Of a DNA stretch of 64,000 bases, positions 4,285 through 46,232 are shown piece after piece. Position 1 is the first letter of the stretch; each line of letters opens with the position of its first letter. The notes beneath the pieces were generated by a model that made no database searches, was not told where the DNA came from, and saw only the letters and a list, made by a program, of their open reading frames with translations. This DNA is from Mesostigma viride (lineage: Eukaryota; Streptophyta; Mesostigmatophyceae; Mesostigmatales; Mesostigmataceae), in the NCBI GenBank assembly GCA_009746045.1, contig RPFO01000890.1:1-64000 (forward strand). The letters run 5' to 3'. A program made the translations under genes and the position numbers.

Positions 4285-4293
4285 GTAGACTGT

Positions 4294-17604: not shown

Positions 17605-17610
17605 TACATC

Positions 17611-17624
17611 ATATATATTACAAG
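17611..17624 (+). repeat. Target-site copy, left of truncated sense insertion
   Basis: Third exact ATATATATTACAAG, preceded by ACATC as at 11421. It is the left duplication for the 190-bp insertion that follows. Confidence 0.85.
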
Positions 17625-17814: not shown

Positions 17815-17828
17815 ATATATATTACAAG
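17815..17828 (+). repeat. Target-site copy, left of element 2
   Basis: Fourth exact ATATATATTACAAG, directly before the first 232-bp monomer. Its partner is ATATATATTACAA at 46220-46232, past the 3' UTR of element 2. Confidence 0.85.
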
Positions 17829-20800
17829 TATGAACCGACGGGGGTTCCTGGATTGAGACACGTTTTTTTCTCCATGCACAGCTGAAAAAACCTGCGCCGA
17901 GGTGCGGCACCGCGGCCTACAGTAGTGATTACTGTCTGCGACACGCCTGGGGCTGGCTGCATCTACCTGTCGGCCAATTGTGACCCGTGGGCTAGGCGAA
18001 TTTGAATGCGGCTTTCCCGTTAGTTGTGGCTCCATCGCTCCAGTTTTCTAGGCTGCATGACATGAACCGACGGGGGTTCCTGGATTGAGACACGTTTTTT
18101 TCTCCATGCACAGCTGAAAAAACCTGCGCCGAGGTGCGGCACCGCGGCCTACGGTAGTGATTACTGTCTGCGACACGCCTGGGGCTGGCTGCATCTACCT
18201 GTCGGCCAATTGTGACCCGTGGGCTAGGCGAATTTGAATGCGGCTTTCCCGTTAGTTGTGGCTCCATCGCTCCAGTTTTCTAGGCTGCATGACATGAACC
18301 GACGGGGGTTCCTGGATTGAGACACGTTTTTTTCTCCATGCACAGCTGAAAAAACCTGCGCCGAGGTGCGGCACCGCGGCCTACGGTAGTGATTACTGTC
18401 TGCGACACGCCTGGGGCTGGCTGCATCTACCTGTCGGCCAATTGTGACCCGTGGGCTAGGCGAATTTGAATGCGGCTTTCCCGTTAGTTGTGGCTCCATC
18501 GCTCCAGTTTTCTAGGCTGCATGACATGAACCGACGGGGGTTCCTGGATTGAGACACGTTTTTTTCTCCATGCACAGCTGAAAAAACCTGCGCCGAGGTG
18601 CGGCACCGCGGCCTACGGTAGTGATTACTGTCTGCGACACGCCTGGGGCTGGCTGCATCTACCTGTCGGCCAATTGTGACCCGTGGGCTAGGCGAATTTG
18701 AATGCGGCTTTCCCGTTAGTTGTGGCTCCATCGCTCCAGTTTTCTAGGCTGCATGACATGAACCGACGGGGGTTCCTGGATTGAGACACGTTTTTTTCTC
18801 CATGCACAGCTGAAAAAACCTGCGCCGAGGTGCGGCACCGCGGCCTACGGTAGTGATTACTGTCTGCGACACGCCTGGGGCTGGCTGCATCTACCTGTCG
18901 GCCAATTGTGACCCGTGGGCTAGGCGAATTTGAATGCGGCTTTCCCGTTAGTTGTGGCTCCATCGCTCCAGTTTTCTAGGCTGCATGACATGAACCGACG
19001 GGGGTTCCTGGATTGAGACACGTTTTTTTCTCCATGCACAGCTGAAAAAACCTGCGCCGAGGTGCGGCACCGCGGCCTACGGTAGTGATTACTGTCTGCG
19101 ACACGCCTGGGGCTGGCTGCATCTACCTGTCGGCCAATTGTGACCCGTGGGCTAGGCGAATTTGAATGCGGCTTTCCCGTTAGTTGTGGCTCCATCGCTC
19201 CAGTTTTCTAGGCTGCATGACATGAACCGACGGGGGTTCCTGGATTGAGACACGTTTTTTTCTCCATGCACAGCTGAAAAAACCTGCGCCGAGGTGCGGC
19301 ACCGCGGCCTACGGTAGTGATTACTGTCTGCGACACGCCTGGGGCTGGCTGCATCTACCTGTCGGCCAATTGTGACCCGTGGGCTAGGCGAATTTGAATG
19401 CGGCTTTCCCGTTAGTTGTGGCTCCATCGCTCCAGTTTTCTAGGCTGCATGACATGAACCGACGGGGGTTCCTGGATTGAGACACGTTTTTTTCTCCATG
19501 CACAGCTGAAAAAACCTGCGCCGAGGTGCGGCACCGCGGCCTACGGTAGTGATTACTGTCTGCGACACGCCTGGGGCTGGCTGCATCTACCTGTCGGCCA
19601 ATTGTGACCCGTGGGCTAGGCGAATTTGAATGCGGCTTTCCCGTTAGTTGTGGCTCCATCGCTCCAGTTTTCTAGGCTGCATGACATGAACCGACGGGGG
19701 TTCCTGGATTGAGACACGTTTTTTTCTCCATGCACAGCTGAAAAAACCTGCGCCGAGGTGCGGCACCGCGGCCTACGGTAGTGATTACTGTCTGCGACAC
19801 GCCTGGGGCTGGCTGCATCTACCTGTCGGCCAATTGTGACCCGTGGGCTAGGCGAATTTGAATGCGGCTTTCCCGTTAGTTGTGGCTCCATCGCTCCAGT
19901 TTTCTAGGCTGCATGACATGAACCGACGGGGGTTCCTGGATTGAGACACGTTTTTTTCTCCATGCACAGCTGAAAAAACCTGCGCCGAGGTGCGGCACCG
20001 CGGCCTACGGTAGTGATTACTGTCTGCGACACGCCTGGGGCTGGCTGCATCTACCTGTCGGCCAATTGTGACCCGTGGGCTAGGCGAATTTGAATGCGGC
20101 TTTCCCGTTAGTTGTGGCTCCATCGCTCCAGTTTTCTAGGCTGCATGACATGAACCGACGGGGGTTCCTGGATTGAGACACGTTTTTTTCTCCATGCACA
20201 GCTGAAAAAACCTGCGCCGAGGTGCGGCACCGCGGCCTACGGTAGTGATTACTGTCTGCGACACGCCTGGGGCTGGCTGCATCTACCTGTCGGCCAATTG
20301 TGACCCGTGGGCTAGGCGAATTTGAATGCGGCTTTCCCGTTAGTTGTGGCTCCATCGCTCCAGTTTTCTAGGCTGCATGACATGAACCGACGGGGGTTCC
20401 TGGATTGAGACACGTTTTTTTCTCCATGCACAGCTGAAAAAACCTGCGCCGAGGTGCGGCACCGCGGCCTACGGTAGTGATTACTGTCTGCGACACGCCT
20501 GGGGCTGGCTGCATCTACCTGTCGGCCAATTGTGACCCGTGGGCTAGGCGAATTTGAATGCGGCTTTCCCGTTAGTTGTGGCTCCATCGCTCCAGTTTTC
20601 TAGGCTGCATGACATGAACCGACGGGGGTTCCTGGATTGAGACACGTTTTTTTCTCCATGCACAGCTGAAAAAACCTGCGCCGAGGTGCGGCACCGCGGC
20701 CTACGGTAGTGATTACTGTCTGCGACACGCCTGGGGCTGGCTGCATCTACCTGTCGGCCAATTGTGACCCGTGGGCTAGGCGAATTTGAATGCGGCTTTC

Positions 20801-23800
20801 CCGTTAGTTGTGGCTCCATCGCTCCAGTTTTCTAGGCTGCATGACATGAACCGACGGGGGTTCCTGGATTGAGACACGTTTTTTTCTCCATGCACAGCTG
20901 AAAAAACCTGCGCCGAGGTGCGGCACCGCGGCCTACGGTAGTGATTACTGTCTGCGACACGCCTGGGGCTGGCTGCATCTACCTGTCGGCCAATTGTGAC
21001 CCGTGGGCTAGGCGAATTTGAATGCGGCTTTCCCGTTAGTTGTGGCTCCATCGCTCCAGTTTTCTAGGCTGCATGACATGAACCGACGGGGGTTCCTGGA
21101 TTGAGACACGTTTTTTTCTCCATGCACAGCTGAAAAAACCTGCGCCGAGGTGCGGCACCGCGGCCTACGGTAGTGATTACTGTCTGCGACACGCCTGGGG
21201 CTGGCTGCATCTACCTGTCGGCCAATTGTGACCCGTGGGCTAGGCGAATTTGAATGCGGCTTTCCCGTTAGTTGTGGCTCCATCGCTCCAGTTTTCTAGG
21301 CTGCATGACATGAACCGACGGGGGTTCCTGGATTGAGACACGTTTTTTTCTCCATGCACAGCTGAAAAAACCTGCGCCGAGGTGCGGCACCGCGGCCTAC
21401 GGTAGTGATTACTGTCTGCGACACGCCTGGGGCTGGCTGCATCTACCTGTCGGCCAATTGTGACCCGTGGGCTAGGCGAATTTGAATGCGGCTTTCCCGT
21501 TAGTTGTGGCTCCATCGCTCCAGTTTTCTAGGCTGCATGACATGAACCGACGGGGGTTCCTGGATTGAGACACGTTTTTTTCTCCATGCACAGCTGAAAA
21601 AACCTGCGCCGAGGTGCGGCACCGCGGCCTACGGTAGTGATTACTGTCTGCGACACGCCTGGGGCTGGCTGCATCTACCTGTCGGCCAATTGTGACCCGT
21701 GGGCTAGGCGAATTTGAATGCGGCTTTCCCGTTAGTTGTGGCTCCATCGCTCCAGTTTTCTAGGCTGCATGACATGAACCGACGGGGGTTCCTGGATTGA
21801 GACACGTTTTTTTCTCCATGCACAGCTGAAAAAACCTGCGCCGAGGTGCGGCACCGCGGCCTACGGTAGTGATTACTGTCTGCGACACGCCTGGGGCTGG
21901 CTGCATCTACCTGTCGGCCAATTGTGACCCGTGGGCTAGGCGAATTTGAATGCGGCTTTCCCGTTAGTTGTGGCTCCATCGCTCCAGTTTTCTAGGCTGC
22001 ATGACATGAACCGACGGGGGTTCCTGGATTGAGACACGTTTTTTTCTCCATGCACAGCTGAAAAAACCTGCGCCGAGGTGCGGCACCGCGGCCTACGGTA
22101 GTGATTACTGTCTGCGACACGCCTGGGGCTGGCTGCATCTACCTGTCGGCCAATTGTGACCCGTGGGCTAGGCGAATTTGAATGCGGCTTTCCCGTTAGT
22201 TGTGGCTCCATCGCTCCAGTTTTCTAGGCTGCATGACATGAACCGACGGGGGTTCCTGGATTGAGACACGTTTTTTTCTCCATGCACAGCTGAAAAAACC
22301 TGCGCCGAGGTGCGGCACCGCGGCCTACGGTAGTGATTACTGTCTGCGACACGCCTGGGGCTGGCTGCATCTACCTGTCGGCCAATTGTGACCCGTGGGC
22401 TAGGCGAATTTGAATGCGGCTTTCCCGTTAGTTGTGGCTCCATCGCTCCAGTTTTCTAGGCTGCATGACATGAACCGACGGGGGTTCCTGGATTGAGACA
22501 CGTTTTTTTCTCCATGCACAGCTGAAAAAACCTGCGCCGAGGTGCGGCACCGCGGCCTACGGTAGTGATTACTGTCTGCGACACGCCTGGGGCTGGCTGC
22601 ATCTACCTGTCGGCCAATTGTGACCCGTGGGCTAGGCGAATTTGAATGCGGCTTTCCCGTTAGTTGTGGCTCCATCGCTCCAGTTTTCTAGGCTGCATGA
22701 CATGAACCGACGGGGGTTCCTGGATTGAGACACGTTTTTTTCTCCATGCACAGCTGAAAAAACCTGCGCCGAGGTGCGGCACCGCGGCCTACGGTAGTGA
22801 TTACTGTCTGCGACACGCCTGGGGCTGGCTGCATCTACCTGTCGGCCAATTGTGACCCGTGGGCTAGGCGAATTTGAATGCGGCTTTCCCGTTAGTTGTG
22901 GCTCCATCGCTCCAGTTTTCTAGGCTGCATGACATGAACCGACGGGGGTTCCTGGATTGAGACACGTTTTTTTCTCCATGCACAGCTGAAAAAACCTGCG
23001 CCGAGGTGCGGCACCGCGGCCTACGGTAGTGATTACTGTCTGCGACACGCCTGGGGCTGGCTGCATCTACCTGTCGGCCAATTGTGACCCGTGGGCTAGG
23101 CGAATTTGAATGCGGCTTTCCCGTTAGTTGTGGCTCCATCGCTCCAGTTTTCTAGGCTGCATGACATGAACCGACGGGGGTTCCTGGATTGAGACACGTT
23201 TTTTTCTCCATGCACAGCTGAAAAAACCTGCGCCGAGGTGCGGCACCGCGGCCTACGGTAGTGATTACTGTCTGCGACACGCCTGGGGCTGGCTGCATCT
23301 ACCTGTCGGCCAATTGTGACCCGTGGGCTAGGCGAATTTGAATGCGGCTTTCCCGTTAGTTGTGGCTCCATCGCTCCAGTTTTCTAGGCTGCATGACATG
23401 AACCGACGGGGGTTCCTGGATTGAGACACGTTTTTTTCTCCATGCACAGCTGAAAAAACCTGCGCCGAGGTGCGGCACCGCGGCCTACGGTAGTGATTAC
23501 TGTCTGCGACACGCCTGGGGCTGGCTGCATCTACCTGTCGGCCAATTGTGACCCGTGGGCTAGGCGAATTTGAATGCGGCTTTCCCGTTAGTTGTGGCTC
23601 CATCGCTCCAGTTTTCTAGGCTGCATGACATGAACCGACGGGGGTTCCTGGATTGAGACACGTTTTTTTCTCCATGCACAGCTGAAAAAACCTGCGCCGA
23701 GGTGCGGCACCGCGGCCTACGGTAGTGATTACTGTCTGCGACACGCCTGGGGCTGGCTGCATCTACCTGTCGGCCAATTGTGACCCGTGGGCTAGGCGAA

Positions 23801-26765
23801 TTTGAATGCGGCTTTCCCGTTAGTTGTGGCTCCATCGCTCCAGTTTTCTAGGCTGCATGACATGAACCGACGGGGGTTCCTGGATTGAGACACGTTTTTT
23901 TCTCCATGCACAGCTGAAAAAACCTGCGCCGAGGTGCGGCACCGCGGCCTACGGTAGTGATTACTGTCTGCGACACGCCTGGGGCTGGCTGCATCTACCT
24001 GTCGGCCAATTGTGACCCGTGGGCTAGGCGAATTTGAATGCGGCTTTCCCGTTAGTTGTGGCTCCATCGCTCCAGTTTTCTAGGCTGCATGACATGAACC
24101 GACGGGGGTTCCTGGATTGAGACACGTTTTTTTCTCCATGCACAGCTGAAAAAACCTGCGCCGAGGTGCGGCACCGCGGCCTACGGTAGTGATTACTGTC
24201 TGCGACACGCCTGGGGCTGGCTGCATCTACCTGTCGGCCAATTGTGACCCGTGGGCTAGGCGAATTTGAATGCGGCTTTCCCGTTAGTTGTGGCTCCATC
24301 GCTCCAGTTTTCTAGGCTGCATGACATGAACCGACGGGGGTTCCTGGATTGAGACACGTTTTTTTCTCCATGCACAGCTGAAAAAACCTGCGCCGAGGTG
24401 CGGCACCGCGGCCTACGGTAGTGATTACTGTCTGCGACACGCCTGGGGCTGGCTGCATCTACCTGTCGGCCAATTGTGACCCGTGGGCTAGGCGAATTTG
24501 AATGCGGCTTTCCCGTTAGTTGTGGCTCCATCGCTCCAGTTTTCTAGGCTGCATGACATGAACCGACGGGGGTTCCTGGATTGAGACACGTTTTTTTCTC
24601 CATGCACAGCTGAAAAAACCTGCGCCGAGGTGCGGCACCGCGGCCTACGGTAGTGATTACTGTCTGCGACACGCCTGGGGCTGGCTGCATCTACCTGTCG
24701 GCCAATTGTGACCCGTGGGCTAGGCGAATTTGAATGCGGCTTTCCCGTTAGTTGTGGCTCCATCGCTCCAGTTTTCTAGGCTGCATGACATGAACCGACG
24801 GGGGTTCCTGGATTGAGACACGTTTTTTTCTCCATGCACAGCTGAAAAAACCTGCGCCGAGGTGCGGCACCGCGGCCTACGGTAGTGATTACTGTCTGCG
24901 ACACGCCTGGGGCTGGCTGCATCTACCTGTCGGCCAATTGTGACCCGTGGGCTAGGCGAATTTGAATGCGGCTTTCCCGTTAGTTGTGGCTCCATCGCTC
25001 CAGTTTTCTAGGCTGCATGACATGAACCGACGGGGGTTCCTGGATTGAGACACGTTTTTTTCTCCATGCACAGCTGAAAAAACCTGCGCCGAGGTGCGGC
25101 ACCGCGGCCTACGGTAGTGATTACTGTCTGCGACACGCCTGGGGCTGGCTGCATCTACCTGTCGGCCAATTGTGACCCGTGGGCTAGGCGAATTTGAATG
25201 CGGCTTTCCCGTTAGTTGTGGCTCCATCGCTCCAGTTTTCTAGGCTGCATGACATGAACCGACGGGGGTTCCTGGATTGAGACACGTTTTTTTCTCCATG
25301 CACAGCTGAAAAAACCTGCGCCGAGGTGCGGCACCGCGGCCTACGGTAGTGATTACTGTCTGCGACACGCCTGGGGCTGGCTGCATCTACCTGTCGGCCA
25401 ATTGTGACCCGTGGGCTAGGCGAATTTGAATGCGGCTTTCCCGTTAGTTGTGGCTCCATCGCTCCAGTTTTCTAGGCTGCATGACATGAACCGACGGGGG
25501 TTCCTGGATTGAGACACGTTTTTTTCTCCATGCACAGCTGAAAAAACCTGCGCCGAGGTGCGGCACCGCGGCCTACGGTAGTGATTACTGTCTGCGACAC
25601 GCCTGGGGCTGGCTGCATCTACCTGTCGGCCAATTGTGACCCGTGGGCTAGGCGAATTTGAATGCGGCTTTCCCGTTAGTTGTGGCTCCATCGCTCCAGT
25701 TTTCTAGGCTGCATGACATGAACCGACGGGGGTTCCTGGATTGAGACACGTTTTTTTCTCCATGCACAGCTGAAAAAACCTGCGCCGAGGTGCGGCACCG
25801 CGGCCTACGGTAGTGATTACTGTCTGCGACACGCCTGGGGCTGGCTGCATCTACCTGTCGGCCAATTGTGACCCGTGGGCTAGGCGAATTTGAATGCGGC
25901 TTTCCCGTTAGTTGTGGCTCCATCGCTCCAGTTTTCTAGGCTGCATGACATGAACCGACGGGGGTTCCTGGATTGAGACACGTTTTTTTCTCCATGCACA
26001 GCTGAAAAAACCTGCGCCGAGGTGCGGCACCGCGGCCTACGGTAGTGATTACTGTCTGCGACACGCCTGGGGCTGGCTGCATCTACCTGTCGGCCAATTG
26101 TGACCCGTGGGCTAGGCGAATTTGAATGCGGCTTTCCCGTTAGTTGTGGCTCCATCGCTCCAGTTTTCTAGGCTGCATGACATGAACCGACGGGGGTTCC
26201 TGGATTGAGACACGTTTTTTTCTCCATGCACAGCTGAAAAAACCTGCGCCGAGGTGCGGCACCGCGGCCTACGGTAGTGATTACTGTCTGCGACACGCCT
26301 GGGGCTGGCTGCATCTACCTGTCGGCCAATTGTGACCCGTGGGCTAGGCGAATTTGAATGCGGCTTTCCCGTTAGTTGTGGCTCCATCGCTCCAGTTTTC
26401 TAGGCTGCATGACATGAACCGACGGGGGTTCCTGGATTGAGACACGTTTTTTTCTCCATGCACAGCTGAAAAAACCTGCGCCGAGGTGCGGCACCGCGGC
26501 CTACGGTAGTGATTACTGTCTGCGACACGCCTGGGGCTGGCTGCATCTACCTGTCGGCCAATTGTGACCCGTGGGCTAGGCGAATTTGAATGCGGCTTTC
26601 CCGTTAGTTGTGGCTCCATCGCTCCAGTTTTCTAGGCTGCATGACATGAACCGACGGGGGTTCCTGGATTGAGACACGTTTTTTTCTCCATGCACAGCTG
26701 AAAAAACCTGCGCCGAGGTGCGGCACCGCGGCCTACAGTAGTGATTACTGTCTGCGACACGCCTG
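17829..26765 (+). repeat. 232-bp monomer array, first block (about 38.5 copies)
   Basis: Unit of 232 bp starting TGAACCGACGGGGGTTCCTGG and ending GGCTGCATGACA. Nearly all copies are identical; the first and the last carry CTACAGTAG where others have CTACGGTAG. Each monomer contains a 91-codon minus-strand ORF, which is incidental. The block breaks after ACACGCCTG where the DNA transposon inserted and resumes at 35167 in register. Confidence 0.95.
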
Positions 26766-26793
26766 CCCCAAACACCCGTAGGTTTGGTAAATT
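26766..26793 (+). repeat. Left terminal inverted repeat
   Basis: 28 bases, exact reverse complement of 35139-35166. CTG precedes it. Confidence 0.92.
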
Positions 26794-27039
26794 TGCATTT
26801 ACCAAAACCAAATTTTTTGAGATATGCGTTTTTTGGTCTTCAATGACGCATATGGTTGGGAAAAACACCAAAACAATGTTCTGACAAAAAAATTTTCATG
26901 GCTTGTGTCAGAAAATTGACGTGAAGGTGCACAGGGCATTTTGTGCCAAATATGACATGTCAATTTTTCCTGACTGCAGTTTTGCTCATAAATAGGCCCC
27001 AATGTGGTGGTTAAGGTCTATCTAGTACCCCAAGAGGGA

Positions 27040-28357
27040 TTGCAAAGTTGCACATTTTTTGGATACCTGCAGGGGTCCCAACGGTGACGTCAAGTAGCAT
27101 AAAAAACGCGGTTTTGCTCGGTTTTAGCCTGTTTAGGCACCCTAGACCATGCAAATGAGATCAGATTGCAGCCAAACTTGGCAGCTGCCCTTGCCATGCT
27201 GAACAAAGAACATGTGCAAAGTTGCACATTTTTTGGATGCCTGCAGGGCACCCTGGGTGACGTCAAATAGCATAAAAACCGCATTTTTGCTCGGTTTGAG
27301 CTCATTTAGGCACCCTAGACCATGCAAATGAGATCAGATTGCAGCCAAACTTGGCAGCTGCCCTTGCCATGCTGAACAAAGAACATGTGCAAAGTTGCAC
27401 ATGTTTTGGATGCCTGCAGGGCACCCTGGGTGACGTCAAATAGCATAAAAAACGCATTTTTGCTCGGTTTCAGCCCATTTAGGCACCCTAGACCATGCAA
27501 GTCAGCTCAGATTGCAGCCAAACTTGGCAGCTGCTCTTGACATGCTGAAACACGAACATGTGCAAAGTTGCACATGTTTTGGATACCTGCAGGGCACCCT
27601 GGGTGACGCCAAGTAGCATAAAATTAATTGACGCGAAGGCGCAAATACGACATGTCAATTTTTCCTGACTGCAGTTTTGCTCTAAACATGGCCCATATGT
27701 GGTGGTTAAGGTCTATCTAGTACCCCAAGAGGGATTGCAAAGTTGCGCATTTTTTGGATACCTGCAGGGGTCCCAACGGTGACGTCAAGTAGCATAAAAA
27801 CCGCATTTTTGCTCGGTTTTAGCCTGTTTAGGCACCCTAGACCATGCAAATGAGATCAGATTGCAGCCAAACTTGGCAGCTGCCCTTGCCATGCTGAACA
27901 AAGAACATGTGCAAAGTTGCACATTTTTTGGATGCCTGCAGGGCACCCTGGGTGACGTCAAATAGCATAAAAACCGCATTTTTGCTCGGTTTGAGCCCAT
28001 TTAGGCACCCTAGACCATGCAAGTGAGCTCAGATTGCAGCCAAACTTGGCAGCTGCCCTTGCCATGATGAACAAAGAACATGCGCAAAGTTGCACATTTT
28101 TTGGATGCCTGCAGGGCACCCTGGGTGACGTCAAATAGCATAAAAAACGCATTTTTGCTCGGTTTTAGCCTGTTTAGGCACCCTAGACCATGCAAATGAG
28201 CTCCTGAAGATTGCAGCCAAACTTGGCAGCTGCCCTTGGTATGCTGCAAAAAGCACATTTGCAACGTTTCACATTTTTGGATACCTGCAGGGCACCCTGG
28301 CTGATGCCAAGTAGCATAAGATTATTTGACGTGAAAGCGCGAATACGTCATTTCAAA
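27040..28357 (-). repeat. Left subterminal tandem array, about 173-bp unit
   Basis: Units recur at 173 bases (for example 27142 and 27315), each with TTGCACATTTTTTGGATGCC, TGACGTCA-type and GCATAAAA motifs and CCTAGACCATGCAA. It is the reverse complement of the right-hand array. TGACGTCA is itself palindromic and might be a transposase or host-factor site; that is inference. Small ORFs here are repeat shadows. Confidence 0.88.
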
Positions 28358-29145: not shown

Positions 29146-31402
29146 CCGTGGGGAGGCCTGCCTCTGTTAGTACTTAGTCTACGCATTACCCAATCGAGCA
29201 TATGTGCTCGCATGAGTGAGTCTCACACAGCTGGATGGCCGCTACAGTTGTGGATAGGGATTGGTGTGCCTCACACAACGATAAATCTATAGATAGGCCC
29301 TAGTAAGATGTTGCAATGTACTATCACCTAAAAATGCTTCCCCACATCAATTAACATGTTCATCATTGCAAATAAAGCGAATTTCTTCCTGCCACTGTGG
29401 TAAGCAACGGACTGTGGTAACGGCCACTCGGCCAGCCCAATGCTTAACCAAAAGTACGCCAAGAAAGTGCAGGGCTAAGTTTGATTTCCTCCTCAGGGTC
29501 CACGCCTGGTCATGCTGCATGCGCACTTAAGCCCATATTTTTTAACAGCTTCAGCCTCGAAAACACCCGCCCTTCTTACCTTTTGATTGCCTCGATCGCG
29601 TGTCACAATAGGACAACTGGTCATCACCGCCATCGGGGTCAAGGTTCGACCACTTCCGGTCCAGTCTGCAATCCCATTGCCCGAAACTTCATTTCACCAG
29701 GAATAGGTTCCGCGACTGCACATTTCCAATGGATGGTGCCGAGAATGCCAACATAGCCGAGCTCGTGAGCATCACCAGCAGCTTGCAGTATTCAGCTGCT
29801 CAAGTTCGATTCATCAAGGGCCTGCACGAGTTGCAAAATTGATCAGCAGCCAGTCCTCGTGCTCGCACGGGAAAAAAAGAATTTCCCCTTGAGAAAATGC
29901 CAAAACATTCATTATTATTATAACAGCAGATCTGTAAATATACTCGAACTCTCGGTTGGTCAGCGCGCTACCTTTCACCGTACTTCCGCGGTGTGGTATT
30001 AGCCAAGCCAGCAACCGGACTTTCTCCCGTCATGCAGTGTCTCTAGATGTTTAATAGCAACATTCCAGGACGCAAGAGAACCCATTACCCCAGGACCTCC
30101 GAAGTATGTCATTCTGCCAGCTGCCTATAAATAAAACCTCTTCGAAACGACTGAGCAACGAAAACTAAACCGTTGACCAATGACCAAATCAGCATTACTC
30201 ATTGATGGCAAATAAAATAGACATGGTTTGAGCCGGAATGGGTAGTCCTCTGCCGAATTCGCATGTTGCCGTCTATACGACTATACAGATTCATAGCATT
30301 TCGAAGAACAATCCTTCGACGTTGCTTGGCAGTTGGCTGCTTGTGAAATGGCGGCTTTTGGGCAGGGGCCACTGCGACCACGTGCATGTCCTGTCCAGTT
30401 TACTGTGTCCTCGTGTCGCATCACGAGTCTGTCAATTATTTGTTTGTACAGTCTGTCATTATTAGGTATCGTACAATGCTGGCTATATTTTGTCTCGACT
30501 CACCAGGCCGAGGCCTGGCCTCTTCCTCGTCCGACCTGTCAATTATGTCAATTATGTCAATTATGTCAATTATGTCAATTATGTCAATTATTTGTTTGCG
30601 TAAACTTTTGCTAGACTTTCAATATTAAAGTTTTATTTTCCAAGGAAAATCACTAAAATCTGCACTTTCTAAGGGCTTTGATACCAAGACCTAGTAATTT
30701 TGACTATGTAGTTTTGACCATGCAACTACGTAAGATTCTAATACTTTACAAATGCTCCCAAACAAATAATTGACATAATTGACATAATTGACATAATTGA
30801 CATAATTGACATAATTGACAGGCTGGCCAACCAGGCGGTGCGTGCCAGCGTGCACGGGCACTGCGTCTTTTGGCACAAGGTGCCGGGGCTGGTGTGAATT
30901 ATGCAGCCTGCAATACCATCCCAGCACTCGGGCAGCAATTTTCTCGCATAGCCGTCGTAAGTTAAAGGTGCTCTATAAGCGACACGCGAGGCTGAGCGAG
31001 AATGCTAGACATTCGATTAATATTGATGGCGGTTGCCTTGCTGACAGAAGGCGTACGATGCGCGCGATCGGTCGAATTCTCCGAATGGCCGCAGTCACCG
31101 AAACCTTGGGTGATAGCGGTCTTGCCGGCCGCTGTCGTCGCAGTATTTCTGTTGTGATCATAATACTTAATTAGGCCCCACCGTCTAGGTAATCTAGTCG
31201 CTCTACACGTAAGCCAGCCTTTATTTCAATGCACAAGGCAACACATTTCCATCACCATTCATCTTCATCATCCTGAACGACTCGAACACGCGGACAAGAT
31301 AACGGCAGGCTCGAGCTACCATGGTCCGGATTCTCCCGATTTCTGGCCTGCGCTGGTTGTCTCCTTGATAATACTTAATATTGCTTTTGGTGGGATTTTG
31401 CG
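29146..31402. other. Unique interior of the DNA transposon, no clear gene
   Basis: Mixed-composition sequence with only short ORFs lacking recognisable domains. It contains the palindromic element at 30535-30822. I see no transposase motif. Confidence 0.5.
30535..30822. mobile_element. MITE-like palindromic element with 9-bp repeats
   Basis: Two perfect 64-base inverted arms (30535-30598 and 30759-30822) enclose a 160-base loop. Each arm is CCT plus six copies of GTCAATTAT plus TTGTTTG, or the complement. No target duplication was found. It could be a fold-back element, or a tandem repeat copied in inverted form. Confidence 0.6.
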
Positions 31403-31804
31403 ATGCACGTGTTTTGGATGGGCCACATGTTGGCGCAGGTTATTGACTTGGATGGGCCAACCCCAGATTCCATCGTGGTTGCGCCATATCACGCCAGCTC
31501 GTGGACCGGGCAGTTCAATAAGGTGCACCTGGGGGCAGGGTCGGCCAGTGGGCAAAGCAACCAGGGGTTAGTTGTTCCATATAACGACATTGTTTTGCAA
31601 CACTGGACCGTTGGAAATGGGGCGGTAGTCCATACGCCAAAGCTGACGGGGGCAAGGAAGCTCAACCAAGGGACGCTAGATGCCTTGAAGCTTCATCCTG
31701 ACATTGACTTTGAGGGGTACAAGACAGTGCAAGCCTCAGAACGTACGACCAAGGTGGCATGTGAATCTTACTTCCGTGAGAGAGGGAGTGCTGCATTGCT
31801 ATAG
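31403..31804 (+). CDS. Hypothetical 133-aa protein within the DNA transposon
   Basis: Begins MHVFWMGHMLAQVIDLDG and reads well as a globular protein (SIVVAPYHASSWTG, GLVVPYNDIVLQHWTVGNG, TLDALKLHPDIDFEGY). Composition lacks the bias of repeat ORFs, so coding origin is plausible. No family recognised. A second ORF starts three bases after its stop in another frame; the pair could be one frameshifted gene or spliced exons. Confidence 0.35.
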   Translation: MHVFWMGHMLAQVIDLDGPTPDSIVVAPYHASSWTGQFNKVHLGAGSASGQSNQGLVVPYNDIVLQHWTVGNGAVVHTPKLTGARKLNQGTLDALKLHPDIDFEGYKTVQASERTTKVACESYFRERGSAALL

Positions 31805-31806
31805 GC

Positions 31807-32196
31807 ATGCGGACATGCGCACTCTTTTTAGCGGGCAAGCCAAGAAGGCAAAAGAGGTTCCATGGGTGGGTTACAAAGGTGGGCCATGCTTTCAAACTTG
31901 TATGGAGTGATGGGCAGAATGAGGAGTATAGCAAGCTAGAGGACGTGCTGAAATTTGTGTGTGGGTGCCCTTACGGTGTAAATGCTTTTGGCCGTGAGCA
32001 AGTCTTGCAGCAGTACCAAGTTGGCAATGGTGCTGGCAGTTCTACGGGAGCTCCTGCTGTGCCTCCGGTGTGTAATGCCACCACAGTCAAGATCCACCAC
32101 GATGTCCACTCAAGTGACGATGAATCGGATATGGAAAACATTGATGACATTAGTGTAGACAGTGATGATGAGGCGGATGAGGCAGAGCGCGATTGA
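31807..32196 (+). CDS. Hypothetical protein with Tudor/chromo-like segment and acidic tail
   Basis: 130 codons. RFHGWVTKVGHAFKLVWSDG followed by QNEEYSKLEDVLKF fits the pattern 'F-G-x-V ... V-x-W/Y-x-DG-x-x-E-x-h' of small Tudor/PWWP-like modules common in transposon proteins of algae and protists. The C-terminus is an acidic tail (DDESDMENIDDISVDSDDEA). It follows the ORF ending at 31804 in a different frame. It may be the tail of the transposon's own protein. Confidence 0.35.
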   Translation: MRTCALFLAGKPRRQKRFHGWVTKVGHAFKLVWSDGQNEEYSKLEDVLKFVCGCPYGVNAFGREQVLQQYQVGNGAGSSTGAPAVPPVCNATTVKIHHDVHSSDDESDMENIDDISVDSDDEADEAERD

Positions 32197-32460
32197 TCAT
32201 AATAGGCTGGTGGCGCAGCATGCGCACGCCTTGGTAATGGTGTCGTCATGATTCCCTGCCTATCCATGTTTTTTAATGTGCCTATACCTCATGCACACAG
32301 GTTTTTGATTTATTGATTTCATGTCATGTCGTGTCATGTCAATATATCAATTTATGGTGGGCACGGGGCCATGTGTCAATTACGCAAAGATAACTAATAT
32401 GTGAAATCCATTGATTGGCCAGTACTGAGCATGCATGGACTTGTGTTCTTTTTGCAATGT

Positions 32461-34990
32461 GGAAAGTTAGGGTGCAATCTGATCTCATTTGCATGGTCTA
32501 GGGTGCCTAAACGGCCTAAAACCGAGCAAAAATGCGGTTTTTATGCTATTTGACGTCACCGTTGGGACCCCTGCAGGTATCCAAAAAATGTGCAACTTTG
32601 CAATCCCTCTTGGGGTACTAGTTAGACCTTAACCACCACATATGAGTCATATTTAGAGCAAAACTGCAGCCAGGAAAAATTGACATGTCGTATTTGCGCC
32701 TTCACGTCAATTAATTTTATGCTACTTGGCGTCACCCAGGGTGCCCTGCAGGCATCCAAAACATGTGCAACTTTGCACATGTTCTTGTTTCAGCATGGCA
32801 AGAGCAGCTGCCAAGTTTGGTTGCAATCTGAGCTCATTTGCATGGTCTAGGGTGCCTAAATGGGCTAAAACCGAGCAAAAATGCGTCTTTTATGCTATTT
32901 GACGTCACCCAGGGTGCCCTGCAGGCATCCAAAAAATGTGCAACTTTGCACATGTTCTTTGTTTAGCATGGCAAGGGCAGCTGCCAAGTTTGGCTGCAAT
33001 CTGATCTCATTTGCATGGTCTAGGGTGCCTAAACAGGCTAAAACCGAGCAAAACCGCGGTTTTTATGCTACTTGACGTCACCGTTGGGACCCCTGCAGGT
33101 ATCCAAAAAATGTGCAACTTTGCAATCCCTCTTGGGGTACTAGTTAGACCTTAACCACCACATATGAGTCATATTTAGAGCAAAACTGCAGCCAGGAAAA
33201 ATTGACATGTCGTATTTGCGCCTTCACGTCAATTAATTTTATGCTACTTGGCGTCACCCAGGGTGCCCTGCAGGTATCCAAAACATGTGCAACTTTGCAC
33301 ATGTTCTTGTTTCAGCATGGCAAGAGCAGCTGCCAAGTCTGGTTGCAATCTGAGCTCATTTGCATGGTCTAGGGTGCCTAAATGGGCTAATTAATTAATT
33401 TCAGCATCAATGGGCTAAAACCGAGCAAAAATGCGTCTTTTATGCTATTTGACGTCACCCAGGGTACCCTGCAGGCATCCAAAAAATGTGCAACTTTGCA
33501 CATGTTCTTTGTTTAGCATGGCAAGGGCAGCTGCCAAGTTTGGCTGCAATCTGATCTCATTTGCATGGTCTAGGGTGCCTAAACAGGCTAAAACCGAGCA
33601 AAACCGCGGTTTTTATGCTACTTGACGTCACCGTTGGGACCCCTGCAGGTATCCAAAAAATGTGCAACTTTGCAATCCCTCTTGGGGTACTAGATAGACC
33701 TTAACCACCACATATGAGTCATATTTAGAGCAAAACTGCAGCCAGGAAAAATTGACATGTCGTATTTGCGCCTTCACGTCAATTAATTTTATGCTACTTG
33801 GCGTCACCCAGGGTGCCCTGCAGGTATCCAAAACATGTGCAACTTTGCACATGTTCTTGTTTCAGCATGGCAAGAGCAGCTGCCAAGTTTGGTTGCAATC
33901 TGAGCTCACTTGCATGGTCTAGGGTGCCTAAATGGGCTAAAACCGAGCAAAAATGCGTCTTTTATGCTATTTGGCGTCACCCAGGGTGCCCTGCAGGCAT
34001 CCAAAAAATGTGCAACTTTGCACATGTTCTTTGTTCAGCATGGCAAGGGCAGCTGCCAAGTTTGGCTGCAATCTGATCTCATTTGCATGGTCTAGGGTGC
34101 CTAAACAGGCTAAAACCGAGCAAAAATGCGGTTTTTATGCTACTTGACGTCACCGTTGGGACCCCTGCAGGTATCCAAAAAATGTGCAACTTTGCAATCC
34201 CTCTTGGGGCACTAGATAGACCTTAACCACCACATATGAGTCATATTTAGAGCAAAACTGCAGCCAGGAAAAATTGACATGTCGTATTTGCGCCTTCACG
34301 TCAATTAATTTTATGCTACTTGGCGTCACCCAGGGTGCCCTGCAGGCATCCAAAACATGTGCAACTTTGCACATGTTCTTGTTTTAGCATGGCAAGAGCA
34401 GCTGCCAAGTTTGGTTGCAATCTGAGCTCATTTGCATGGTCTAGGGTGCCTAAATGGGCTAAAACCGAGCAAAAATGCGGTTTTTATGCTATTTGACGTC
34501 ACCCAGGGTGCCCTGCAGGCATCCAAAAAATGTGCAACTTTGCGCATGTTCGTTGGTTAGCATGGCAAGAGCAGCTGCCAAGTTTGGCTGCAATCTGATC
34601 TCATTTGCATGGTCTAGGGTGCCTAAACAGGTTAAAACCGAGCAAAAACGCGTCTTTTATGCTCTTTGACGTCACCCAGGGTGCCCTGCAGGCATCCAAA
34701 AAATGTGCAACTTTGCACATGTTCTTTGTTTAGCATGGCAAGGGCAGCTGCCAAGTTTGGCTGCAATCTGATCTCATTTGCATGGTCTAGGGTGCCTAAA
34801 CAGGCTAAAACCGAGCAAAACCGCGGTTTTTATGCTACTTGACATCACCGTTGGGACCCCTGCAGGTATCCAAAAACTGTGCAACTTTGCAATCCCTCTT
34901 GGGGCACTAGATAGACCTTAACCATCACATATGGGCCTGTGTATGAGCAAAACTGCAGTCAGGAAAAATTGACATGTCATATTTGGCACA
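32461..34990 (+). repeat. Right subterminal tandem array
   Basis: Tandem and higher-order copies of the reverse complement of the left array, about 2.5 kb versus 1.3 kb on the left. Blocks alternate the 173-bp unit with a longer unit containing CCACATATGAGTCATATTTAGAG. The higher-order period is about 520-550 bases (for example 32881 and 33431 begin the same unit). Confidence 0.85.
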
Positions 34991-35138
34991 AAATGCCCTG
35001 AAAAGCACCTTCACGTCAATTTCGTCAGGGGGGGGGTAAGGTTTTTTGGTCCAAATACATTTCTCGAGGCATCCTGCACCAAGTATGAGTCAGACAAGCA
35101 AAAATATTCAGTTTTTAAAATTTTACCAAAAATGTGGT

Positions 35139-35166
35139 AATTTACCAAACCTACGGGTGTTTGGGG
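35139..35166 (-). repeat. Right terminal inverted repeat
   Basis: 28 bases ending GGGTGTTTGGGG, exact complement of 26766-26793. CTG follows at 35167-35169. Confidence 0.92.
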
Positions 35167-38100
35167 CTGGGGCTGGCTGCATCTACCTGTCGGCCAATTG
35201 TGACCCGTGGGCTAGGCGAATTTGAATGCGGCTTTCCCGTTAGTTGTGGCTCCATCGCTCCAGTTTTCTAGGCTGCATGACATGAACCGACGGGGGTTCC
35301 TGGATTGAGACACGTTTTTTTCTCCATGCACAGCTGAAAAAACCTGCGCCGAGGTGCGGCACCGCGGCCTACGGTAGTGATTACTGTCTGCGACACGCCT
35401 GGGGCTGGCTGCATCTACCTGTCGGCCAATTGTGACCCGTGGGCTAGGCGAATTTGAATGCGGCTTTCCCGTTAGTTGTGGCTCCATCGCTCCAGTTTTC
35501 TAGGCTGCATGACATGAACCGACGGGGGTTCCTGGATTGAGACACGTTTTTTTCTCCATGCACAGCTGAAAAAACCTGCGCCGAGGTGCGGCACCGCGGC
35601 CTACGGTAGTGATTACTGTCTGCGACACGCCTGGGGCTGGCTGCATCTACCTGTCGGCCAATTGTGACCCGTGGGCTAGGCGAATTTGAATGCGGCTTTC
35701 CCGTTAGTTGTGGCTCCATCGCTCCAGTTTTCTAGGCTGCATGACATGAACCGACGGGGGTTCCTGGATTGAGACACGTTTTTTTCTCCATGCACAGCTG
35801 AAAAAACCTGCGCCGAGGTGCGGCACCGCGGCCTACGGTAGTGATTACTGTCTGCGACACGCCTGGGGCTGGCTGCATCTACCTGTCGGCCAATTGTGAC
35901 CCGTGGGCTAGGCGAATTTGAATGCGGCTTTCCCGTTAGTTGTGGCTCCATCGCTCCAGTTTTCTAGGCTGCATGACATGAACCGACGGGGGTTCCTGGA
36001 TTGAGACACGTTTTTTTCTCCATGCACAGCTGAAAAAACCTGCGCCGAGGTGCGGCACCGCGGCCTACGGTAGTGATTACTGTCTGCGACACGCCTGGGG
36101 CTGGCTGCATCTACCTGTCGGCCAATTGTGACCCGTGGGCTAGGCGAATTTGAATGCGGCTTTCCCGTTAGTTGTGGCTCCATCGCTCCAGTTTTCTAGG
36201 CTGCATGACATGAACCGACGGGGGTTCCTGGATTGAGACACGTTTTTTTCTCCATGCACAGCTGAAAAAACCTGCGCCGAGGTGCGGCACCGCGGCCTAC
36301 GGTAGTGATTACTGTCTGCGACACGCCTGGGGCTGGCTGCATCTACCTGTCGGCCAATTGTGACCCGTGGGCTAGGCGAATTTGAATGCGGCTTTCCCGT
36401 TAGTTGTGGCTCCATCGCTCCAGTTTTCTAGGCTGCATGACATGAACCGACGGGGGTTCCTGGATTGAGACACGTTTTTTTCTCCATGCACAGCTGAAAA
36501 AACCTGCGCCGAGGTGCGGCACCGCGGCCTACGGTAGTGATTACTGTCTGCGACACGCCTGGGGCTGGCTGCATCTACCTGTCGGCCAATTGTGACCCGT
36601 GGGCTAGGCGAATTTGAATGCGGCTTTCCCGTTAGTTGTGGCTCCATCGCTCCAGTTTTCTAGGCTGCATGACATGAACCGACGGGGGTTCCTGGATTGA
36701 GACACGTTTTTTTCTCCATGCACAGCTGAAAAAACCTGCGCCGAGGTGCGGCACCGCGGCCTACGGTAGTGATTACTGTCTGCGACACGCCTGGGGCTGG
36801 CTGCATCTACCTGTCGGCCAATTGTGACCCGTGGGCTAGGCGAATTTGAATGCGGCTTTCCCGTTAGTTGTGGCTCCATCGCTCCAGTTTTCTAGGCTGC
36901 ATGACATGAACCGACGGGGGTTCCTGGATTGAGACACGTTTTTTTCTCCATGCACAGCTGAAAAAACCTGCGCCGAGGTGCGGCACCGCGGCCTACGGTA
37001 GTGATTACTGTCTGCGACACGCCTGGGGCTGGCTGCATCTACCTGTCGGCCAATTGTGACCCGTGGGCTAGGCGAATTTGAATGCGGCTTTCCCGTTAGT
37101 TGTGGCTCCATCGCTCCAGTTTTCTAGGCTGCATGACATGAACCGACGGGGGTTCCTGGATTGAGACACGTTTTTTTCTCCATGCACAGCTGAAAAAACC
37201 TGCGCCGAGGTGCGGCACCGCGGCCTACGGTAGTGATTACTGTCTGCGACACGCCTGGGGCTGGCTGCATCTACCTGTCGGCCAATTGTGACCCGTGGGC
37301 TAGGCGAATTTGAATGCGGCTTTCCCGTTAGTTGTGGCTCCATCGCTCCAGTTTTCTAGGCTGCATGACATGAACCGACGGGGGTTCCTGGATTGAGACA
37401 CGTTTTTTTCTCCATGCACAGCTGAAAAAACCTGCGCCGAGGTGCGGCACCGCGGCCTACGGTAGTGATTACTGTCTGCGACACGCCTGGGGCTGGCTGC
37501 ATCTACCTGTCGGCCAATTGTGACCCGTGGGCTAGGCGAATTTGAATGCGGCTTTCCCGTTAGTTGTGGCTCCATCGCTCCAGTTTTCTAGGCTGCATGA
37601 CATGAACCGACGGGGGTTCCTGGATTGAGACACGTTTTTTTCTCCATGCACAGCTGAAAAAACCTGCGCCGAGGTGCGGCACCGCGGCCTACGGTAGTGA
37701 TTACTGTCTGCGACACGCCTGGGGCTGGCTGCATCTACCTGTCGGCCAATTGTGACCCGTGGGCTAGGCGAATTTGAATGCGGCTTTCCCGTTAGTTGTG
37801 GCTCCATCGCTCCAGTTTTCTAGGCTGCATGACATGAACCGACGGGGGTTCCTGGATTGAGACACGTTTTTTTCTCCATGCACAGCTGAAAAAACCTGCG
37901 CCGAGGTGCGGCACCGCGGCCTACGGTAGTGATTACTGTCTGCGACACGCCTGGGGCTGGCTGCATCTACCTGTCGGCCAATTGTGACCCGTGGGCTAGG
38001 CGAATTTGAATGCGGCTTTCCCGTTAGTTGTGGCTCCATCGCTCCAGTTTTCTAGGCTGCATGACATGAACCGACGGGGGTTCCTGGATTGAGACACGTT

Positions 38101-40687
38101 TTTTTCTCCATGCACAGCTGAAAAAACCTGCGCCGAGGTGCGGCACCGCGGCCTACGGTAGTGATTACTGTCTGCGACACGCCTGGGGCTGGCTGCATCT
38201 ACCTGTCGGCCAATTGTGACCCGTGGGCTAGGCGAATTTGAATGCGGCTTTCCCGTTAGTTGTGGCTCCATCGCTCCAGTTTTCTAGGCTGCATGACATG
38301 AACCGACGGGGGTTCCTGGATTGAGACACGTTTTTTTCTCCATGCACAGCTGAAAAAACCTGCGCCGAGGTGCGGCACCGCGGCCTACGGTAGTGATTAC
38401 TGTCTGCGACACGCCCGGGGCTGGCTGCATCTACCTGTCGGCCAATTGTGACCCGTGGGCTAGGCGAATTTGAATGCGGCTTTCCCGTTAGTTGTGGCTC
38501 CATCGCTCCAGTTTTCTAGGCTGCATGACATGAACCGACGGGGGTTCCTGGATTGAGACACGTTTTTTTCTCCATGCACAGCTGAAAAAACCTGCGCCGA
38601 GGTGCGGCACCGCGGCCTACGTAGTGATTACTGTCTGCGACACGCCCGGGGCTGGCTGCATCTACCTGTCGGCCAATTGTGACCCGTGGGCTAGGCGAAT
38701 TTGAATGCGGCTTTCCCGTTAGTTGTGGCTCCATCGCTCCAGTTTTCTAGGCTGCATGACATGAACCGACGGGGGTTCCTGGATTGAGACACGTTTTTTT
38801 CTCCATGCACAGCTGAAAAAACCTGCGCCGAGGTGCGGCACCGCGGCCTACGGTAGTGATTACTGTCTGCGACACGCCCGGGGCTGGCTGCATCTACCTG
38901 TCGGCCAATTGTGACCCGTGGGCTAGGCGAATTTGAATGCGGCTTTCCCGTTAGTTGTGGCTCCACCGCTCCAGTTTTCTAGGCTGCATGACATGAACCG
39001 ACGGGGGTTCCTGGATTGAGACACGTTTTTTTCTCCATGCACAGCTGAAAAAACCTGCGCCGAGGTGCGGCACCGCGGCCTACGGTAGTGATTACTGTCT
39101 GCGACACGCCCGGGGCTGGCTGCATCTACCTGTCGGCCAATTGTGACCCGTGGGCTAGGCGAATTTGAATGCGGCTTTCCCGTTAGTTGTGGCTCCACCG
39201 CTCCAGTTTTCTAGGCTGCATGATGAACCGACGGGGGTTCCTGGATTGAGACACGTTTTTTTCTCCATGCACAGCTGAAAAAACCTGCGCCGAGGTGCGG
39301 CACCGCGGCCTACGGTAGTGATTACTGTCTGCGACACGCCCGGGGCTGGCTGCATCTACCTGTCGGCCAATTGTGACCCGTGGGCTAGGCGAATTTGAAT
39401 GCGGCTTTCCCGTTAGTTGTGGCTCCACCGCTCCAGTTTTCTAGGCTGACATGATGAACCGACGGGGGTTCCTGGATTGAGACACGTTTTTTTCTCCATG
39501 CACAGCTGAAAAAACCTGCGCCGAGGTGCGGCACCGCGGCCTACGTAGTGATTACTGTCTGCGACACGCCCGGGGCTGGCTGCATCTACCTGTCGGCCAA
39601 TTGTGACCCGTGGGCTAGGCGAATTTGAATGCGGCTTTCCCGTTAGTTGTGGCTCCACCGCTCCAGTTTTCTAGGCTGACATGATGAACCGACGGGGGTT
39701 CCTGGATTGAGACACGTTTTTTTCTCCATGCACAGCTGAAAAAACCTGCGCCGAGGTGCGGCACCGCGGCCTACGGTAGTGATTACTGTCTGCGACACGC
39801 CCGGGGCTGGCTGCATCTACCTGTCGGCCAATTGTGACCCGTGGGCTAGGCGAATTTGAATGCGGCTTTCCCGTTAGTTGTGGCTCCACCGCTCCAGTTT
39901 TCTAGGCTGACATGATGAACCGACGGGGGTTCCTGGATTGAGACACGTTTTTTTCTCCATGCACAGCTGAAAAAACCTGCGCCGAGGTGCGGCACCGCGG
40001 CCTACGTAGTGATTACTGTCTGCGACACGCCCGGGGCTGGCTGCATCTACCTGTCGGCCAATTGTGACCCGTGGGCTAGGCGAATTTGAATGCGGCTTTC
40101 CCGTTAGTTGTGGCTCCACCGCTCCAGTTTTCTAGGCTGACATGATGAACCGACGGGGGTTCCTGGATTGAGACACGTTTTTTTCTCCATGCACAGCTGA
40201 AAAAACCTGCGCCGAGGTGCGGCACCGCGGCCTACGTAGTGATTACTGTCTGCGACACGCCCGGGGCTGGCTGCATCTACCTGTCGGCCAATTGTGACCC
40301 GTGGGCTAGGCGAATTTGAATGCGGCTTTCCCGTTAGTTGTGGCTCCACCGCTCCAGTTTTCTAGGCTGCATGATGAACCGACGGGGGTTCCTGGATTGA
40401 GACACGTTTTTTTCTCCATGCACAGCTGAAAAAACCTGCGCCGAGGTGCGGCACCGCGGCCTACGTAGTGATTACTGTCTGCGACACGCCCGGGGCTGGC
40501 TGCATCTACCTGTCGGCCAATTGTGACCCGTGGGCTAGGCGAATTTGAATGCGGCTTTCCCGTTAGTTGTGGCTCCACCGCTCCAGTTTTCTAGGCTGAC
40601 ATGATGAACCGACGGGGGTTCCTGGATTGAGACACGTTTTTTTCTCCATGCACAGCTGAAAAAACCTGCGCCGAGGTGCGGCACCGC
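35167..40687 (+). repeat. 232-bp monomer array, second block (about 24 copies)
   Basis: Continues the array in register. Up to about 38400 monomers equal those of the first block. From there to the element body, variants accumulate: CGCCCGGGG, loss of one G in CTACGTAG, CTCCACCGC and altered CATGATGAACC, giving 229-231-base units. The last monomer is cut after GCGGCACCGCG at the leader. Confidence 0.95.
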
Positions 40688-40805
40688 GTTGGGGGGCTGC
40701 CGCCCCCCAAACCCCCCGCTTGGGGGGCACGCCCCCCAAACCCCCCGCGTCCGCATCTCGCTCTCCCCCCGCGCTTCCGGTTCCGTTGTTTTACGCACCT
40801 CCCCC

Positions 40806-46219: not shown

Positions 46220-46232
46220 ATATATATTACAA

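Follow-up and report, generated by a model that had tools for sequence, protein, structure and literature searches.

A satellite-like 232-bp array in Mesostigma viride is very probably the 5' region of an R2-group LINE

Mouse L1 is an APE LINE. SLACS, a CRE-clade element of T. brucei, is a site-specific LINE with a restriction-like endonuclease (RLE) and carries ~185-bp 5' repeats in variable number; relative to element 2, the LINE that we describe here from a 64,000-nucleotide stretch of DNA (the window), SLACS has only a few repeat copies and a spliced-leader target. Mouse L1 (L1Md) resembles element 2 in having tandem 5' monomers of ~200 bp that fall into several types, vary in number and show positional preferences of subtype, and one promoter of 50 monomers has been reported (PMC6454616, in the portion available). 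Unlike mouse L1, element 2 is by its profile match and motifs an R2-group RLE LINE, with arrays of 19-63 unit starts at the four loci followed in full and an (AT)n target. The CRE-like FoTeR and MoTeR elements are, like element 2, RLE LINEs with tandem repeats, which in FoTeRs are concentrated at the 5' end. They differ in being telomere-associated, in having VNTR motifs that span a few hundred bp to ~1.2 kb and, for MoTeR1, in having the largest array near the 3' end; unlike element 2, they are not noted to have PHD or RING fingers in the accessible sections of PMC12857005. Zepp and ZeppL of green algae share with element 2 nested self-insertion and clusters rich in truncated 3' ends, but are L1-related, and the part of PMC8226300 that we draw on describes no 5' monomer array for them. 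In Lathyrus Ogre, repeats inside a retrotransposon likewise give rise to satellite arrays, although Ogre is an LTR retrotransposon whose repeats lie in the 3' UTR (PMC7004042, in part). Togen, HERO and other RLE LINEs share insertion into microsatellites; Togen differs in its (TG)n target, and monomer arrays are not described in the extract of PMC4640811 consulted. There is thus precedent both for tandem 5' regions (mouse L1, FoTeR/MoTeR) and for satellites derived from retrotransposons; what is new is the presence of large arrays on an R2-group element. Alongside mouse L1 and the telomeric RLE LINEs with their shorter repeats, the range of monomeric 5' regions grows to include an R2-group element with large arrays.

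In all probability, the 232-bp array forms the 5' part of an R2-group LINE that was active recently, carries a restriction-like endonuclease and has short (AT)n tracts as its insertion sites; target-primed reverse transcription is the presumed mechanism. A tandem array that a repeat annotator would label satellite is then part of a LINE and spreads with it, on the basis of dozens of places across one genome whose 5' ends are near-identical. The features of the window on which this reading draws are as follows.

11425-11438, + strand: 5' target copy of element 1
11441-12188, + strand: element 1 array, 4.4 copies of a 170-bp monomer (TRF), unrelated to the 232-bp unit
12189-17590, + strand: element 1 leader, coding region and 3' UTR
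17591-17604, + strand: 3' target copy of element 1
17625-17814, + strand: copy B, a 5'-truncated element 1 3' end between target copies at 17611 and 17815
17815-17828, + strand: 5' target copy of element 2, ATATATATTACAAG (exact motif), also serving truncated copy B as its 3' target copy
17830-26765, + strand: distal block of the 232-bp array, 38 full monomers and part of one, D type
26766-35166, no strand assigned: nested DNA transposon, a later insertion outside the LINE proper, with a 28-bp perfect TIR and a CTG duplication
35167-40687, + strand: leader-proximal block of the 232-bp array, which opens with the 3-base CTG copy
40688-40805, + strand: element 2 leader, GC-rich, with two hairpins, resembling the element 1 leader
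40806-46010, + strand: element 2 coding region, in interrupted frames, with PHD finger, RING finger, RT (RVT_1) and endonuclease motif
46011-46219, + strand: element 2 3' UTR, terminus CTATCATTCTCAATGA, shared by all four independent full-length loci
46220-46232, + strand: 3' target copy of element 2, ATATATATTACAA, abutting the 3' UTR end at 46219

The array comprises 62.4 copies of the 232-bp unit in two blocks, 17830-26765 (TRF: 38.5 x 232 bp, 99%) and 35167-40687 (TRF on 35167-40688: 23.9 x 232 bp, 99%). We treat the blocks as a single array because the intervening 8.4 kb (26766-35166) has the perfect 28-bp inverted terminus CCCCAAACACCCGTAGGTTTGGTAAATT and the 3-bp CTG duplication of a later transposon. 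Dissection of the array gives 63 unit starts, made up of 61 complete monomers, one monomer split by the insertion and an 84-bp partial unit (40604-40687), for a total of ~14.5 kb of array DNA. Among the 61 complete monomers, 50 share one identical sequence; differences are concentrated beside the leader, where the last ~10 monomers are of P type or intermediate (T119C, T206C, +226A, -231/232); in the distal block, G92A occurs in the first and in the split monomer. The exact count of 62 units is uncertain, while the array itself is not in doubt.

The first-pass annotation had proposed that this 'satellite' of about 62 units is a retrotransposon 5' region lying between one target copy and the leader, with the opposite copy past the 3' UTR. 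That layout is borne out in the window: the array starts at 17830, after the target copy at 17815-17828 and a single T (a 1-bp gap), and runs to the leader at 40688, with the opposite copy at 46220-46232. ATATATATTACAA occurs five times in the 64 kb, always at element ends (11425, 17591, 17611, 17815, 46220). However, AATATATATT is palindromic (identical to its reverse complement), and element 1 also has truncated, inverted copies downstream, so the window duplication is not decisive by itself; we rejected it as stand-alone proof, and the other genomic loci decide. The same plan had been claimed for element 1, and this too is upheld, in one copy, by 4.4 copies of the 170-bp monomer between target copy and leader. 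Elements 1 and 2, whose RT regions share 53% protein identity, therefore carry unrelated monomers in the same slot directly before the leader, although the element 1 plan is known from that one copy. Rfam returned nothing at gathering threshold, only sub-threshold stem matches in the leaders (E 0.54-0.79), and we accordingly claim no ribozyme; the leader RNA folds of the two elements are not notable (z -1.62 and -1.54).

Pfam scanning finds RVT_1 in both elements. A profile built from element 1, element 2 and L001 (a contig described below) best matches R2 proteins in the PDB (9nl3, 3.6e-13; 9dou, 5.5e-13), with LINE-1 ORF2 at 0.001; the element 1 sequence alone gave no PDB match at 0.001. Element 1 contains CGSCGQPLDPTGTHYLAC and RPDIVVLDFEGGGRHLLID, a CCHC finger and an RPD...D motif, with counterparts in element 2, whose coding region has Cys/His fingers (by eye), CX2CX9HX3C and an RPD...LLID restriction-like endonuclease motif. 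The RLE LINE motifs given in the available text of PMC12857005 are C[X1-3]C[X7-8]H[X3-4]C and R/KPD.X12-14.D/E, and the spacing here (X9 before H, 15 from RPD to D) falls slightly beyond both ranges; Pfam, for its part, reports no endonuclease domain at these motifs. The profile match and motifs together place the element, as judged from sequence, in the R2 group of LINEs with a restriction-like endonuclease. We rejected a Zepp-like L1 identity: the RT best matches the R2 type, the RLE motif is present, and the Pfam scan shows no endonuclease family in the ORFs spanning the element 2 coding region. An AlphaFold model was unusable (mean pLDDT 33). A collection of genome contigs yielded one match, L001, a Fluviicola MAG contig, probably a eukaryotic contaminant, with an ORF for an RLE-type LINE protein of 1,878 aa; it has no tandem repeats and, with just 119 bp preceding the ORF, is uninformative on the 5' end. 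Viral contigs, searched by protein and by monomer, and a phage collection gave no match.

The host genome (440 Mb) holds 341 first-look candidate matches to the element 5' end, of which we scored 40. All 40 run through the monomer/leader junction with monomer directly 5' of the leader, with the proviso that they are partly non-independent, including C895/C1106 and several small contigs that may be second copies of one locus. At all 35 further places the monomer continues just upstream of the leader; 32 are monomer over the full 261 bp read, and 3 have less than one unit. The first-pass annotation had called for such a survey of other copies, and its identification of the array as element sequence is supported by it, as is its view that a retroelement disperses satellite DNA, since the array recurs with the body and the junction is repeated at many places. 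Bodies lacking monomers, which it had named as contrary evidence, were not seen among the 40 scored of the 341. The junction is moreover nucleotide-identical at the other four full-length copies (C895 included), the window being without 11 bp of it. A chimeric origin, with the reverse transcriptase switching from LINE RNA to a satellite transcript, would account for the differing monomers of elements 1 and 2, but repeated independent switching is contradicted by the identical junctions, which such events would not give and which all 40 scored matches span; we rejected it and consider a chimeric insertion extremely unlikely. A single ancestral capture of the monomers followed by inheritance is a possible origin.

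A search for the array gave 359 hits, and we followed 7 array loci at length, counting C895 with C1106a. A body is present at 4 of these 7; the other 3 are body-free, all in rearranged or gapped contexts. At C1106b the 5' flank of the body-free array is a duplicate common to C1106a, and C1502 has two blocks without a body, with a strand switch inside the array and one block adjoining a run of N. The concern that arrays might commonly occur without bodies is thus answered only in part, from these 7 loci among the 359 hits. These body-free blocks, and the length and satellite-like homogeneity of the array, are what would be expected had a LINE landed in or beside an independent 232-bp satellite. 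Against this stand the target copy outside the array, the junction recurring in 40 of 40 scored matches, the monomer type order common to copies and the unrelated array in the same slot of element 1. On these grounds we rejected insertion into a pre-existing satellite, which we regard as highly improbable.

The 3' junction reads CAATGA|ATATATAT at 4 of 4 independent loci and CAATGA|ATATAT at 4 of 5 further loci. Target-site duplications are 7-13 bp at four loci (ATATATATGG at C1591, ATATATATTA at C1602, ATATATATTACAA in the window and just 7 bp, TATATAT, at C1106a), and 5'-truncated 3' ends are also present. All 7 arrays followed to their start (C895 and C1106b among them) have TATATAT no more than ~15 bp away from it; the background is 0.3% of positions with the motif within 20 bp upstream. 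The family targets (AT)n, and nesting occurs, with some copies inserted at the ATATAT flank of older ones.

Five bodies are covered in full, four independent (window, C1106, C1591 and C1602, with 63, 40, 19 and 60 unit starts, each followed from array to 3' flank) and C895, judged the same locus as C1106. The C1602 copy is interrupted by ~0.5 kb and its array contains 5,188 N. Over 5.5 kb, the window, C1106a and C1591 bodies differ pairwise by 0 substitutions and 2-6 indel events. The two monomer types keep one order in all four independent copies, P beside the leader and D distal, with some mixing. Of 35 further places, 34 have the P state at site 206 in the monomer adjoining the leader; at C1521 (L053) this position is taken by a D monomer. 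C895 and C1106a have 40 unit starts each but disagree in monomer type (in C895 every monomer is D), and assembly or polishing may thus account for part of the monomer identity. Two lone monomers lie between C1106a and C1106b. That disagreement, the runs of identical monomers, and the stretches of N and changes of strand in C1602 and C1502 could suggest that assembly has inflated array length; with leader-adjoining arrays on many contigs, and flanks differing where determined, we judge this very improbable.

By analogy with mouse L1, the array is most likely a stacked promoter. Each monomer would carry a promoter or start site, and a transcript starting in an upstream monomer would leave a new copy with a promoter despite 5' truncation. 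Array starts at C1106, C1591 and C1602 fall at a common monomer base within 2 bp (CCATCGCTCC, base 203), the pattern expected from a fixed RNA 5' end. However, starts elsewhere differ (base 1 in the window, 226 at C1502, and about 111, 102 and 189 in the short copies L074, L077 and L078), which leaves a single start site unproven. Unequal exchange between monomers would lengthen and homogenise arrays, up to ~14.5 kb, and extension during second-strand priming may add to their growth. Satellite-like blocks would thereby be seeded by the element at dispersed sites, and the satellite would be generated by the element, not merely carried.

Some 62 units stand for the window but belong to the long tail of the family, as a probe 2 kb upstream is non-monomer at 14 of 32 places; and the ~14.5-kb array is, as had been proposed, extreme, but it has a precedent in a published 50-monomer mouse L1 promoter (PMC6454616, in part). 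Insertion could instead occur with one or few monomers, with long arrays forming later at each locus by unequal crossing-over, so that the retrotransposon seeds but does not copy them. Substitution-free bodies with 19, 40 and 63 unit starts fit this scheme, as do the 3 of 35 copies with less than one unit, those 14 non-monomer probes, the greater uniformity of distal units and the unequal crossing-over credited for the 50-monomer mouse promoter in the same portion of PMC6454616. The P-then-D order over many units is, however, common to independent insertions, which makes at least partial copying of multi-unit arrays probable. We give expansion in place a little under an even chance; it is compatible with the stacked-promoter reading, from which it differs only in the balance of the two processes.

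A broader scenario, which we offer tentatively and think rather unlikely, is that an R2-group lineage, freed from a host-gene promoter, repeatedly recruited stacked promoters from unrelated units of 170 and 232 bp. It would copy arrays of tens of units via ~10-20-kb RNAs and act as a satellite factory, (AT)n targeting and self-nesting would build subtelomeric and interstitial repeat blocks, and insertion may be tied to chromatin marks through the PHD and RING fingers. With near-identical bodies and arrays ranging from <1 to 62 units, the family lends itself well to the study of array growth.

The window is a chromosome end, with (AAACCCT)n over 4-3325 and, beyond these telomere repeats, two LINEs in the same orientation. 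The first-pass annotation took the 232-bp satellite to be the 5' region of the second LINE and gave the first the same plan with a 170-bp unit. That plan is borne out in the window, where the 170-bp array of element 1 is followed by leader (the GC-rich stretch between array and coding region), coding region and 3' UTR.

Features of the two LINEs
11441-12188: element 1, 170-bp array
After this array, up to 17590: element 1 leader, coding region and 3' UTR
Between elements 1 and 2: copy B, a 5'-truncated element-1 3' end of 190 bp
17830-40687: element 2, 232-bp array, split at 26766-35166 by a nested DNA transposon
40688-40805: element 2 leader
Ending at 46010: element 2 coding region
Ending at 46219: element 2 3' UTR

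The element 2 array has 63 unit starts, and 50 of its 61 complete 232-bp units are identical. The 170-bp and 232-bp units are unrelated, since their local alignment score of 21 lies below the best among 100 shuffles (26); the stretches directly 3' of the two arrays resemble each other (GCGTTGGGGGGCTGCCGCCCCCCAAAC). The transposon within the 232-bp array is an 8.4-kb TIR element; its TIR is CCCCAAACACCCGTAGGTTTGGTAAATT, it has a CTG duplication, and it contains a (TGGG)n tract and long inverted arms built of 173-bp tandem repeats. Elsewhere in the window, a 983-bp unit occurs as two identical copies in tandem (3314-5276) directly inside the telomere repeats, and a CCHC zinc-knuckle ORF and an integrase-like ORF at 6293-8385 (by eye; a Pfam scan gave no match) possibly belong to an LTR-type element, whose ~395-bp repeats (97%) would be those spanning 5684-6074 and 8908-9298. 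A third LINE family occurs at 46896-47822 and 62177-63958, in opposite orientations and 94% identical over ~950 bp.

The host genome was searched over 440 Mb in 2243 contigs, the window's own among them. The 232-bp monomer has at least 359 matches (19 of 157 candidates scored), those listed being on contigs C1793, C1602, C1591, C1502, C1106 and C895. Reading of flanks placed full-length bodies at five places, namely the window, C1106, C895, C1591 and C1602 (this last body with a ~0.5 kb insert), and monomers reach the leader in all five. Because both flanks are common to C895 and C1106 (5 mismatches and 52 gaps in 2,669; 3 mismatches and 18 gaps in 608), we count these as one locus, and thus four independent full-length loci. 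The expected placement of monomers directly 5' of the leader also holds at other copies: all 40 scored matches to a query of 38 bp of monomer plus leader cross the junction (40 of 341 candidates scored, the places being partly non-independent). At the 35 junction matches beyond loci already read, the 261 bp farther upstream are monomer throughout in 32, and the array ends inside them in three. Three of seven array loci read at length lack a body: one is C1106b, the second array locus on C1106, whose 5' flank duplicates the C1106a flank, and the others are two C1502 blocks, both of which switch strand within the array. The interval between C1106a and C1106b holds two isolated monomers.

The three places where the array ends so early, L074, L077 and L078, hold under one unit each. 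The L077 array start is preceded by another copy's 3' end with CAATGA and ATATAT, an arrangement that reads as head-to-tail nesting; that of L074 is preceded by an element-1 3' end and that of L078 is set in other sequence. Element-1 3' ends with AT-rich flanks lie upstream of element-2 arrays at L099 (G000:C965) and L074 (G000:C667), and the two families appear to reuse one another's insertion flanks. Probes 2 kb upstream fell in monomer at 18 of the other 32 places and 5-kb probes at two of the eight tested, a non-monomer probe meaning that the array had ended or been interrupted there. Together with the copies of under one unit, this puts the window's 62 units near the top of the observed range. 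The array had been called extreme beside mouse L1, which stands against the 99% of promoters with ten or fewer monomers and is tempered by one published promoter with 50 (accessible text of PMC6454616).

Unit starts number 63 in the window, 40 at C1106 (also 40 at C895), 19 at C1591 and 60 at C1602, where 5,188 N lie within the array. The window, C1106 and C1591 bodies are 0 substitutions and 2-6 indel events apart, and the C1602 body differs from them by 10 substitutions; such near-identity indicates very young copies. At least one TIR element (TACAGTACCAACCCGCGGTAACGC) and one integrase-like sequence (by eye) break up the C1602 array (L023/L024, G000:C1602:957020-970950). Array length varies widely among these almost identical bodies, implying either a variable transcript start unit or fast array change after insertion, both models being named for mouse L1 in the accessible text of PMC6454616. 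The mosaic of monomer types favours exchange between units. Leader-proximal (P) units carry T119C, T206C and +226A and have lost 231-232, changes absent from distal (D) units. P units lie at the leader and D units outward, with some mixing, in the window, C1106a, C1591 and C1602 (where P or intermediate units number about 10, 13, 8 and 25, respectively), and at 34 of 35 further places the leader-adjoining unit has the P state at site 206. Exceptions are C1521, with D beside the leader, and C895, with D in 39 of 39 units; since a single locus of equal unit number underlies both C895 and C1106a, one of them may have been altered by polishing or assembly.

On the model of mouse L1, a start site would be present in every monomer, and truncation at insertion would leave promoters in the remaining monomers. 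In three independent contexts the array begins at monomer base 203, to within 2 bp, the pattern expected of a fixed RNA 5' end; the window, C1502, L074, L077 and L078 have other starting bases.

The coding regions of both elements have interrupted frames. Each matches PHD finger, RING finger and RVT_1 (Pfam, the scan covering part of element 1's reading frames), with additional Cys/His fingers seen by eye and a C-terminal CCHC motif and RPD...LLID. A profile of elements 1 and 2 with L001, an outside contig encoding a restriction-like endonuclease (RLE)-type LINE protein, matches solved R2 proteins best (3.6e-13) and LINE-1 ORF2 next (0.001); element 1 alone gave no match to solved structures at 0.001. 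From the profile and the C-terminal motifs, the element is classed by sequence as an RLE LINE of the R2 group. SLACS is another LINE with tandem 5' repeats. The accessible portions of earlier papers already describe LINEs with such repeats (PMC6454616, PMC12857005), satellites arising from retrotransposon repeats (PMC7004042, PMC12628747) and self-targeting, nested LINE clusters (PMC8226300). Neither a PHD-finger RLE LINE nor the monomer, satellite and non-LTR combination was found in the open library searched, an absence that weighs little. The novelty lies in combination and scale, with a large monomeric 5' array as a constant feature of a young, (AT)n-targeting PHD/RING R2-group family.

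At all four independent full copies the 3' UTR ends CTATCATTCTCAATGA, followed by ATATATAT. In the stretches read, TATATAT lies within a few bases 3' of 9 of 11 element-2 and 9 of 10 element-1 3' ends, counts that include the C895 and C1106b duplicate rows; tracts of (AT)4 or more number 30 in 284,630 bp. CAATGA then ATATAT is found at four of five further 3' ends, and the fifth, L084, has monomer at that stretch, probably the next element's array. On the other side, TATATAT lies just 5' of all seven array starts read (background 0.3% of positions, within 20 bp upstream). Target duplications measure 13 bp (window), 10 bp (C1591), 10 bp (C1602) and 7 bp (C1106). At C1591 element 2 is inserted in a third-family LINE copy; the family-3 copy at ~63640 of the window lacks the extra (AT)3 in this target region, so that the C1591 AT tract either reflects older local variation or is incompletely understood. 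At 17591-17624 two target copies follow one another, ATATATATTACAAG TACATC ATATATATTACAAG, an arrangement that would fit a target which was itself a short repeat or had been duplicated more than once.
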